Positions 6,568 through 10,483 of a DNA stretch of 35,698 bases are shown one piece after another. A program made the position numbers and the translations under genes. Within the stretch, counting starts at the first letter, position 1; every line of letters starts with the position of its first letter. The stretch comes from a bacterium. GTDB taxonomy: Bacteria; Armatimonadota; Chthonomonadetes; Chthonomonadales; CAJBBX01. The stretch lies in contig JAJZOL010000211.1 of NCBI GenBank assembly GCA_021811565.1, forward strand, positions 1 through 35,698, in the 5' to 3' direction. A model generated the notes under the pieces. It ran no database searches. It was given only the letters and a program-made list of their open reading frames with translations, and was not told the origin of the DNA.

Positions 6568-7728
6568 CTAGAAATAGGGACCGCCCATCATATAGATCGC
6601 CGTGCCCATTAGGTTCAGATAGAGAAACCACAAGGTAATTACCAAGCGATGCGCCAAATGCGAATGATAACGGTCGGCCAGAATGAAGAACAAAGGGAAT
6701 GCTGTGATGAGGAACCGCGGAATAGCCGATCCGCTACTCCTAAAGAGGATGGAGACCAGAACCGCCCCTGCGAAAAACTTCATCAGGAACGAATACCGTG
6801 GGTCCTTAAGCAGAAAAGCGTAGAACAGGATGCACGCCATCAGCCCGCAGTAACTCAATTCCAATATCAAGGGGAACCAGGACAGTCCCGCCGTACCGAC
6901 AATTGTTCGCGCGATAAAACCTGGAAATTGCCAGATGGGGAGCAGGTGTTGTTGCCAGTTGCCTTGTTCGGCGTGGAAGCTGGCCAAGGGGTCCTGGAAG
7001 GCGATTCCGAAATAGCACATATGGAGACCTATCGCAAACAAAGGCAATATTAACCCTCCTATCATTGCAAATGAAATTCGAGGAATCCTGCGTCGATGAA
7101 GGAGATAAATAATATTGGATACGATCGCGATATAAGCCGGGTAGCCCATCGGCCAGGTCAGGTAAGCAAGCGCCACGTATCCACCGGTTTTCCACCACTT
7201 CTCATCTTCCGCCGCAAGAAATCCGGCGAAGAGAAACGCGAAAAACAACGACATGGAATATCCCGTGGCGAGGAAGACGCCGGCGGGGGAGACGGCCCAC
7301 AGCAGCAGGCAAAGCCTTCGCGCCGGATCGTTAAGATATCGTCGGCAAAGCCGATCCAGGAAAATCATCGCCCACAGGGACGCCGCACCGGATACGATGA
7401 GCGCACTATACGCGAGAGAGTAAAAATTGGTTTTGAAAAACAGTAACAGGCTGAGGAAATGAATGAGGATGGGATAGAGCGGATAAAAGACGACACGGGG
7501 GTCGCCAAACTGGTAGCCATCGCGGGCGATGTGGATATAGTCCCGGGCGTCCCCGCGCGTAATGACATGAAGAAAAGGATATGAATGTCGAAAAAAGATT
7601 CAGACGAAAAGCGCGACCGCATAGGTGACCCCCACGCCGGCGAGCCAGTATTTTACCGGGTCGCACGCTTGGATCCATCCGTTTTTCAAGGAGTGGTCGG
7701 TGGGCTTTTGGGATTGGATACTTTTCAT
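6568..7728 (-). pseudogene. PIG-V/GPI-mannosyltransferase-like membrane glycosyltransferase, interrupted by in-frame TGA
   Basis: The frame runs from an ATG at 7728 through 42 codons to a TGA at 7602-7600 and then continues in the same frame, without another stop, to a TAG at 6568. Directly after the TGA the translation has the family signature of multi-spanning PIG-V-type mannosyltransferases: RGDARDYIHIARDGYQFGDP followed by VVFYPLYPILIHFLSLLL. Normal members have WDA..Y..IA..GY and FPLYP in this loop. The rest has about eight hydrophobic helices. An internal ATG at 7368 could start a 266-residue product, but it would lack the first helix and the catalytic loop aspartates. The enzyme would transfer a hexose from a lipid-linked donor on the outer face of the membrane. 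The stop may be a true nonsense mutation (CGA or TGG to TGA), readthrough or a sequence error. Last gene of the damaged leftward cluster. Confidence 0.75.
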
Positions 7729-7800
7729 TTTTCCGTTTTGTTTGTTAAAATCCGGGAAATAATTCCCGATGCAACGCCTATCGGTGGATTGTCAAATCAC

Positions 7801-8817
7801 TCAAGCTGGGGTTTTTCTCCTTCGCATTATCCACGCAAAGGCGATCAGGGTGCAAACGAACAGACCGGTCACCAACGCTTGGATGAGCCGCTCCCTGCTT
7901 TTAGCCCTCTCCGCCGCTTCGCGCATTTGGACAAGTTGGTGGGCTACGGAGCCGGTCCCCTGGAGCACCTGGTTCAAGGATTCCCCGGCGAACTCCTGCT
8001 TCCCTTCCACTGGAATTCCGAAACGATTGTCAAAGACAGTTTTCCCCTCCACGGATAGGTTAAAGGAGGATGATGGCGGTGCTTGGAAACTGGCTTGAAG
8101 AATATGTATATTATCAGTCTCAGTTCGTCTGCCATTATTGATATCATATTCCGTGGAATTCACTATTGTTGGTATCCATGCGCCATCCTGACTGCGCTTC
8201 CATGAATTCATAATCCAGCGTCTCATTAGAAGATTGCGGATTTTCGTATAACGAGATATCTCCTTTGCAACATATCCATGAGCGGGATCCAATACGGCGC
8301 GGATATAACTGCCATCTCCGATATCTCCCGTAAAAATCACATCGTTTTTTTCATATGAAATCACTGGATGTTTAATATAAGCAAAGCCTCTGCCAATATA
8401 AGCGCATGGACCAGGTATCATTGTCAACAACCATGCAATATTCTTTGGAATTCCTGGAATGAATGAACTTTTTGGATGTATCTCCATGGAATTCCCCATT
8501 GAATAAAACGTATTATGTTCATTTGAGATGATTGTTGCCACATCTTTCTGTTTTAATTGGGATGACTGAGTTTCGATTTTGTAATTCCCTTTCTTTGTGT
8601 ATATGATGCATTCATGTTGATATGAATTTGATACCGGAGATCCATACAGTTTATGCGTTGTTAAATTGTAAATTAAACAGCCTTGAAGCGCTTGATTATC
8701 GTTATGGCGGATATGAGCAAGAATGTCATCTGTTTTAGAGATAGCGTGCGTCATTGACAAAAAAAGAAATGTAACAATCATGCAAATAATCGGAATATGG
8801 ATTTGCTGTCGAATCAT
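7801..8817 (-). CDS. Membrane-anchored extracytoplasmic protein of unknown function
   Basis: The 338-residue product has an N-terminal signal peptide (residues 1-25, MIRQQIHIPIICMIVTFLFL then SMTHA). A large extracytoplasmic domain rich in beta-strand-like sequence follows. Near the C-terminus is one membrane helix (about 311-331) followed by MRRRKTPA, so this is a type I membrane protein. The start follows AAAGGAT about nine bases upstream. The ATG codons and coding frame are intact, unlike the genes on both sides. The sequence is AT-richer than most of the window. The pattern of Y/K/E-rich strands (GNYKIETQSSQ, YSMGNSMEIHP) is reminiscent of LolA/RseB-like domains, and its place behind an ECF sigma factor would fit an envelope-sensing partner, but this is a guess. 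No family is recognised. Confidence 0.7.
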   Translation of the reverse strand: MIRQQIHIPIICMIVTFLFLSMTHAISKTDDILAHIRHNDNQALQGCLIYNLTTHKLYGSPVSNSYQHECIIYTKKGNYKIETQSSQLKQKDVATIISNEHNTFYSMGNSMEIHPKSSFIPGIPKNIAWLLTMIPGPCAYIGRGFAYIKHPVISYEKNDVIFTGDIGDGSYIRAVLDPAHGYVAKEISRYTKIRNLLMRRWIMNSWKRSQDGAWIPTIVNSTEYDINNGRRTETDNIHILQASFQAPPSSSFNLSVEGKTVFDNRFGIPVEGKQEFAGESLNQVLQGTGSVAHQLVQMREAAERAKSRERLIQALVTGLFVCTLIAFAWIMRRRKTPA

Positions 8818-8905
8818 TAAATGTTAATCCTTTGATGGCTAATGGTTGCTAATCTGATTATTCACAACAAACGTAAGCGGTGTCGAATTCCACTTTATTT
8901 CCATC

Positions 8906-9196
8906 TTATCCTTGAGTGACTCCCTTTATTTGTCCACCGCAATCAAGTTCATCATAATGATAATCCCACCTGTATTCAGGCTGTGGTGCTTTTTGACACC
9001 CTTCGAATGGGTTTGTAGTTACTCCGCAATTTAATGGTGGATCAGGTGCTAATCATACCATCCATCGTATTTACTTTGTGGTGTTTGCGCTATTGGTGTT
9101 TCCGCGCATGTTGCCCACACCACCGCCACGCAACTGATAACCAGGAAGAGGCTCGCCAGAAGCGTAAGCATGCATTTCTTAAATTCAGTTTGCCAT
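8906..9196 (-). pseudogene. Small secreted protein gene, frame-shifted
   Basis: Between the sigma factor and the 338-residue protein, the reverse strand holds a small exported protein split over two frames. From an ATG at 9171 one frame reads a signal-peptide-like segment MLTLLASLFLVISCVAVVWA, then TCAETPIAQTPQSKYDGWYD and a TAG at 9051-9049. At the same point another frame continues with APDPPLNCGVTTNPFEGC, then a Cys-containing tail ending DELDCGGQIKGVTQG and TAA at 8908-8906. One missing base near 9051 would join them into a protein of about 90 residues with conserved-looking Cys/Gly positions. A better start may be the ATG at 9196 behind AAGGAG, but that also needs a one-base shift near 9188. 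The ends 9196 and 8906 are in the same frame, so two compensating indels restore the frame. The product would be a short exported Cys-containing protein; its role is unknown. Confidence 0.45.
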
Positions 9197-9413
9197 TGAT
9201 CTCAATTCTCCTTTTCTCGAAAATGCGTCCTCGTTTCGGTCGTTCAAGTATTCCCGCTTTTTTTTTGGTGCGAAAGCGTCCGTCAAACCGGCGCGGAACG
9301 GGGACTTGTTCATCCCTCATACTATAAAACGACGCAAACGGGCTAAAACCTACGGGTTGAGCGAAAAAATTTTTTTCGTGAACCTCGCTAAATCTCACCG
9401 ACGGATCATATCC

Positions 9414-10022
9414 TTAGCCTCCCGGGATGATGTATCCTTTGGCTCGCAGAATTTTTCGCAAACGTCGTCTGGCTCTTCTTAGGGTTTGATCCGCAGCTTC
9501 CTCGGTGATGCGAAGCGCATCGGCTATCTCCCGGATCGGCTGATCGTAATAACAACGCAGAACAAGAACGTCGATCTCTTTTTTTGTCAAACCCTCAAGG
9601 GCGACATTCACATGCTCCATAAAATCCTTTCAACACAATTCCTCCTCCGGGTTTGAGGGTTGATCGGATGGATCGCGCGGAACGATGTCCCCGTTTTTTG
9701 CTTCATATTCCTCCAAACTCGTTTTGTGTTTGTTCCGGCGGAGAATAGGTCTCGTATAATCTATCAAGTGGTTAAAGGCGTAAGTGGCAAGACGATGCCT
9801 ATTCGCGTTCGCACATGTTTCGTTGCATTCGGCGAGTATGCATCCGTTAGTTCGCATCATCTTCTCGATAAATGTGATACGGCAATCCTCCGCATCCGCA
9901 TACTGCATGCGGAAATAAGCAGCCAATTTTAGGATTATTTCGCTCAGGCACTTAAAACAATTTTGATCGGAGTATCGGCTAATCGACGCGTCTTCCTCTC
10001 AAAGGGTCATTTTCAGGCTCAT
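9414..10022 (-). pseudogene. ECF-type RNA polymerase sigma factor interrupted by two in-frame TGA codons
   Basis: Three consecutive open pieces in one frame together spell an ECF sigma factor of about 200 residues. Piece one starts at ATG 10022 (MSLKMTL) and stops at TGA 10001-9999. Piece two (EEDASISRYSDQNCFKCLSE..., with LAAYFRMQYADAEDC typical of region 2.1/2.2) stops at TGA 9632-9630 after NPEEELC. Piece three (KDFMEHVNVALEGLTKKEID) has the region 4 helix-turn-helix, including YYDQPIREIADALRITEEAA and RRARRRLRKIL. No frame change is needed, only readthrough or reversion of two TGAs; CGA (Arg) would suit both sites. Alternatives for piece two alone are TTG at 9926, which cuts into the first helix, or a rare ATT at 9983 placed after GAGAGGAAG. 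Piece three has its own ATG at 9620 preceded by AAAGGA and could be made as a free region-4 peptide. Head of the leftward cluster. Confidence 0.7.
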
Positions 10023-10483
10023 CGCAAAAGAGGCGGGATTTCCATTTATTGATGATCAATTGAATTTGGAAATAACGTAGGGAGATTGCGATTCTCTTTT
10101 TATCACAACTCGCTTTATTTGTCAATAAATAGTTCATTTCATTGCAGGATTTCAAATAAATTTTAAAATAAAATAGTTTGTTATTGTAAGGAGGGAATAT
10201 CGGATGCGAACATGCGGTGGGAGTGGAAATTATGTCGGAGGTTGGGGTGACGGAGTTCCGGCGTGAGATCCCCATGTTTCGGCGGATATTAGCTGGTGGT
10301 TGAAACCGCGCCTCGCAAAATCACGAAACCGACTGTGCGACTTGAGGCGTTAATTCATTCACGGGGTGGGGGCTCATCGCCCGCAGGGGGGCGTATACAC
10401 CCGCTTGATAGGGCTCGCGGCTCGGATTGCCCACGCAAGAAATCGCGGTCGGTCAGATTGGTGGTTCATACCCGTTCAATAGA
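10023..10483. other. Intergenic region between the sigma factor and the GH27 gene
   Basis: This 461-bp gap lies upstream of the leftward sigma factor and downstream of the leftward GH27 gene. The half next to the sigma factor (10023-10195) is AT-rich and would hold its promoter, though no clear -35/-10 pair was found. The half next to GH27 is GC-rich, with local hairpins such as CGCCCGCAGGGGGGCG (10378-10393), and contains scrambled coding-like sequence on the plus strand (see 10232-10303). No intact gene is supported. Confidence 0.5.
10232..10303 (+). pseudogene. Possible Phd/RelB-type antitoxin N-terminal fragment
   Basis: A 23-codon plus-strand frame reads MSEVGVTEFRREIPMFRRIL then AGG and TGA. 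It sits behind GGGAGTGG with a five-base gap to the ATG. The VGVTEFRR...AGG pattern resembles the N-terminal DNA-binding segment of Phd-like antitoxins, where AGE would be followed by a VVVT strand. Another frame directly downstream (from about 10304) reads ETAPRKITKPTVRLEAL, which could be the displaced continuation, and later LVVHTRSIDHF, vaguely like a PIN-toxin start. This is weak pattern matching on short degenerate sequence. Confidence 0.2.

Follow-up and report, generated by a model that had tools for sequence, protein, structure and literature searches.

Stop codons inside the reading frames of neighboring genes may mark an operon in decay or one in which UGA is read through, and the locus analyzed here raises the question of which applies. 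The locus lies in contig C8 of a metagenome-assembled genome (4.0 Mb, 248 contigs, 92% complete) from an uncultured bacterium of the Armatimonadota; this stretch of 35,698 nucleotides is referred to as the window. On its minus strand it carries, in order, a sigma-like gene and genes for a small secreted protein, a 338-aa protein and a polytopic membrane protein. A preliminary description had reported two TGA codons in the sigma gene, indels in the small secreted gene and one TGA in a gene named as a mannosyltransferase, and had weighed clustered decay of one functional unit against local UGA readthrough; it had also proposed a comparison of orthologous operons, a genome survey for in-frame TGA in conserved genes and a check for a suppressor tRNA(UCA).

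We compared the operon with those of two reference genomes: G001, from the same genus, and G014, from another family of the same order. In both, the four genes recur in identical order and are open, although the sigma gene of G014 lacks an in-frame start. The window and G001 are 64% identical in the sigma protein, 50% in the 338-aa protein and 89% in the membrane protein, with corresponding values against G014 of 42% for the 338-aa protein and 64% for the membrane protein. Since the relatives are intact where the window has lesions, each lesion can be called against an intact copy; judged in this way, the window has at least seven disabling lesions within 3.4 kb, distributed over three of the four genes. 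The lesions are present in the window and absent from the two relatives, which supports the clustered decay suggested previously. Based on these comparisons, we propose with a probability of roughly 0.87 that ordinary point mutations and small indels have recently disabled the four-gene operon of this lineage, under the standard genetic code. The inactivating events would comprise: (i) two start losses; (ii) a single nonsense codon per gene in three genes; and (iii) indels that disrupt the frame of the small gene.

Of the first gene, which encodes a CxxC-type ECF sigma factor, a remnant persists from the lost start to its TAA (9414–9983, minus strand), and its region 4 matches PF04545 in a Pfam search. 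A codon view of this gene and its intact G001 ortholog reveals two lesions: the start codon, ATG in G001, is ATT (9981–9983, minus strand), and a CAG has changed to TGA in the linker between sigma regions 2 and 4 (9630–9632, minus strand). The other TGA previously counted against this gene (9999–10001, minus strand) is not a lesion, as it precedes the true start and is also present in the intact G001 gene, where it begins 18 nt before the ATG within the ribosome-binding stretch TGAGAGGAAGG. The dN/dS ratio between the window and G001 is 0.52 for the sigma gene.

The break falls exactly in the linker and leaves both halves in frame, and the TGA is directly followed by AAGGATTTTATG (9618–9629, minus strand), where a ribosome might bind and restart translation of the region-4 half. 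This would be compatible with a split sigma factor, in which regions 2 and 4 are two proteins and the second restarts at ATG 9618–9620 after AAGGAT; SigO and RsoA of Bacillus subtilis work as two proteins. However, AAGGAT simply corresponds to the Lys-Asp codons of the unsplit ortholog, which reads AAG GAT TTG ATG at this point, the first half begins with ATT instead of a normal start, both operon neighbors are also broken, and the second half alone has a dN/dS of 0.74 against G001. We therefore regard a functional split as very unlikely, even if the region-4 half of the window sigma might still be produced from the in-frame ATG after AAGGAT.

The small Cys-rich secreted-protein gene is intact in both G001 and G014, and broken in the window (8858–9200, minus strand), as had been described. 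Aligned to the intact G001 gene, its start has changed from ATG to ATC (9198–9200), one base is missing near 9171, more frame-breaking indels are present, with a TAG at 9049–9051, and a CAA has become an in-frame TAA (8906–8908). The last of these contradicts the statement that all nonsense codons at the locus are TGA; the TAA and the start losses of the sigma and small genes had been missed. In the polytopic membrane-protein gene (6568–7728, minus strand), intact in both relatives, the reported TGA is confirmed (7600–7602, minus strand), and results from a one-base change from TGG, at a Trp that is invariant in the relatives. The name given to this gene finds no support in family searches: the membrane protein has no Pfam match at E ≤ 1, its intact ortholog no NCBIfam match at E ≤ 0.1, and no credible PDB relative was found, so that a glycosyl- or mannosyltransferase label is unsupported.

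These lesions bear directly on local recoding, under which TGA would encode an amino acid here and the genes of the operon would be functional. TGA does account for two of the three nonsense codons, with one at a Trp position, and the overall dN/dS of the membrane-protein gene, window versus G001, is still low (0.15). The low ratio shows only that the decay is recent. Against recoding stand the TAA, the lost start and the indels of the small gene, and the sigma gene is without its ATG too. Elsewhere in the same genome, stops occur in none of 45 ABC_tran and none of 20 Sigma70_r2 domain matches (0/65), and the tRNA-Trp anticodon is CCA; no UCA tRNA was present among the 30 of 40 tRNA loci read in this 92% complete assembly, with the tRNA-Sec model left out. 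The mixture of lesion kinds and the lack of further in-frame stops in the domain matches sampled lead us to reject UGA recoding, and we consider local readthrough extremely unlikely.

Sequencing or assembly errors would be conceivable in a metagenome-assembled contig from an assembly of 248 contigs and 92% completeness, and every lesion is small. Such an explanation would nevertheless need at least seven independent errors in 3.4 kb, most of the lesions being single substitutions, while the 65 domain matches and the surrounding long genes of the window, previously noted as intact, are clean. We judge it to be very unlikely.

The one gene that is intact, in agreement with the preliminary description, is the 338-codon open reading frame (7801–8817, minus strand), which encodes a secreted protein with a C-terminal membrane anchor. 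A Pfam search gave no family for this protein, and its AlphaFold model is too poor for use. The gene is a mosaic: compared with G001, the N-terminal ~240 aa are strongly diverged, with dS near or beyond saturation, and the C-terminal 105 aa have a dS of 0.54, while the GC content of the N-terminal part is 0.37 versus 0.44 in G001. By blastn, positions 6569–8110 match G001 at 88% and 9073–10126 at 80%, with no match between. The unmatched, low-GC block of ~960 bp (8110–9073) spans the coding sequence of the mature small protein as well as that of the 338-aa ectodomain, and is flanked by sequence that is 80–88% identical. The blastn gap and the contrasts in dS and GC point to probable recombination of this block. 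The mature small protein and the 338-aa ectodomain seem to have been swapped as one unit, as would suit proteins that interact with each other.

An intact 338-aa gene counts against decay, as does the sigma divergence from G014: the distance of the window sigma from G014 does not exceed that of the intact G001 copy, so that a long phase of relaxed evolution is not apparent. The loss thus looks recent. We infer that the operon as a unit no longer works. As in other cases of bacterial operon pseudogenization, several independent lesions are found in adjacent genes whose orthologs are intact in relatives; the difference is that one gene, encoding the 338-aa protein, is open and contains a probably recombined block. 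At least two other copies of the sigma family carry stops (G001:C6:37994-38527, a TGA; G001:C3, an internal TAG), which suggests that gain and loss of such cassettes may be routine. At G001:C6:35000-41500, TGA is found in the sigma gene and in the adjoining membrane-protein gene as well. The loss of an envelope-stress or glycan pathway, as suggested earlier, is not established by this decay: the membrane protein is without a family, and other sigma-family cassettes remain in the genome.

Profile searches identified 18 well-covered CxxC-type sigma genes in G000, G001, G012 and G014, and weaker relatives in G008, G010 and G030. The family resembles ECF (group 4) sigma factors in that region 4 matches Pfam and intact relatives score above the cut-off of the sigma70-ECF superfamily model TIGR02937 (42.9 bits): the G001 ortholog of the window gene scores 56.2 bits, the G012 relative 64.1 and the G014 relative 54.3, with the G000:C166 paralog below the cut-off at 33.7. 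The best PDB match of the G001 sigma model is an ECF sigma, although a weak one (E 1.5e-3, with poor global superposition). The family differs from ECF sigma factors in a region 2 that falls below Pfam detection, in a conserved CxxCL near the N-terminus together with a further conserved Cys, and in genomic partners that are small Cys-rich secreted proteins. Similar sigma cassettes also carry Cys-rich secreted proteins. The genes downstream of the sigma gene at G001:C76 encode, as judged by eye, proteins of 253 aa (prepilin-like) and 375 aa; the latter, with a Cys-rich CAECDQRELCAGGC motif at its end, looks like a radical-SAM/SPASM maturase.

Of the 18 genes, 13 have an unusual 5' end, with no in-frame ATG, GTG or TTG before the domain: the window copy, ten that would need a +1 shift and two that would need a −1 or +2 shift. 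The ten +1 candidates (G000:C28 and C166; G001:C16, C17, C43, C46 and C76; G012:C91 and C124; G014:C55) lack an in-frame start but have an ATG or GTG one frame off. Among 54 control sigma loci only two were flagged, both because their alignments are only partial. In nine of the ten candidates, the off-frame start is followed by exactly five codons and a stop, giving the leader peptides MKDEYP, MNDEYP, MKDDYP (twice), VNTEPP (twice), MNRIPP, MSDHPH and MNDHPH. The junctions read CCC-TAG-C in four genes, CCC-TGA-A in two, CCC-TGA-C in one and CAC-TGA-A in two, such that a CCC-stop junction is present in seven of the ten, and the junction is invariant among close relatives. In the tenth candidate, G001:C46, the junction is TTG-TGA-G and lies at codon 11; the fit is poorer, because a shift at this position would lose the first Cys.

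Two comparisons argue that these genes are maintained. The open frames of the close ortholog pair G000:C166 and G001:C17 are full-length and preceded by an identical leader, and differ by 17 synonymous and 8 non-synonymous changes; the resulting dN/dS of 0.144 indicates, for this one pair, that the frame-changed sigma gene is under clear purifying selection and not simply dead. All four C28-type paralogs retain CCCTAGC at the junction, with pairwise dS values of 0.27–0.92 between them.

Taken together, the sequences lead us to favor, with some reservation, the view that programmed +1 frameshifting directly after initiation is the only route by which an ECF sigma family of Chthonomonadales-type Armatimonadota is produced. 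Translation would start at the ATG or GTG one frame off and proceed through five further codons (MKDEYP, MNRIPP, VNTEPP, MNDHPH), whereupon the ribosome would meet the stop at codon 7 (CCC-TAG-C, CCC-TGA or CAC-TGA). A +1 slip at this point would place the ribosome in the sigma frame, with the CxxCL motif a few residues ahead, and sigma output would depend on release-factor speed at the leader stop. Where CCC is followed by T, tRNA-Pro can re-pair in the +1 frame. The CAC-T and TTG junctions allow only poor +1 re-pairing and are a weak point of the frameshift reading; the candidates are also few in number and share common descent. As the chief alternative, translation may begin at a non-AUG codon within the sigma frame.

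The closest known parallel considered is the +1 frameshift of prfB, encoding RF2, which has its classical CTTTGAC site in these genomes, so that +1 frameshifting is in use there. The sigma paralogs likewise have an early in-frame stop and need a +1 shift, and their P-site codon can re-pair when CCC is followed by T. They differ from prfB in that the shift would occur at codon 6–7, directly after initiation, at CCC-TGA, CCC-TAG or CAC-TGA instead of CTT-TGA-C, with no internal Shine-Dalgarno stimulator seen, and in a gene for a sigma factor, not a release factor. Folding of the sequence beyond the shift site gave no common structure that would indicate a shared stimulatory hairpin. When four genomes were searched for the pattern GGAG...ATG-4 codons-CCC-TGA, 5 matches were returned versus 3 for the reversed pattern, and thus no sign of such sites outside the sigma family; the TGA members of the family lack the combination of GGAG and ATG, and were not expected to match.

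The two genes that would need a −1 or +2 shift, G000:C38 and G001:C3, have an ATG-led leader, MEPHTQY or MESHTQY, that ends in TAC-TGA. In these two genes, a CTG that overlaps the stop (CTGA) might act as an alternative start or restart. The window sigma lacks the off-frame-start arrangement of its sister genes, and we reject +1 frameshifting for it: the ATG upstream (AAAATGACCCTTTGA) already shares the frame of the sigma coding sequence, and after a +1 slip at CTT-TGA translation would, as read from the sequence, end after about 21 residues.

Frameshifting in sigma-factor genes was not described in the literature searched, which was covered in part; in the portion consulted, the GeneTack survey, which covers 1,106 genomes, makes no mention of sigma in its main text (PMC3711429).

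For the window itself, the analysis removes one recoding candidate and shows the recent loss of one sigma-linked cassette. This is ordinary, recent operon decay, and the greater interest lies in the sister sigma genes. If these do shift frame immediately after initiation, a ribosome slip would set the dose of these regulators, and several natural shift sites would be available for comparison.
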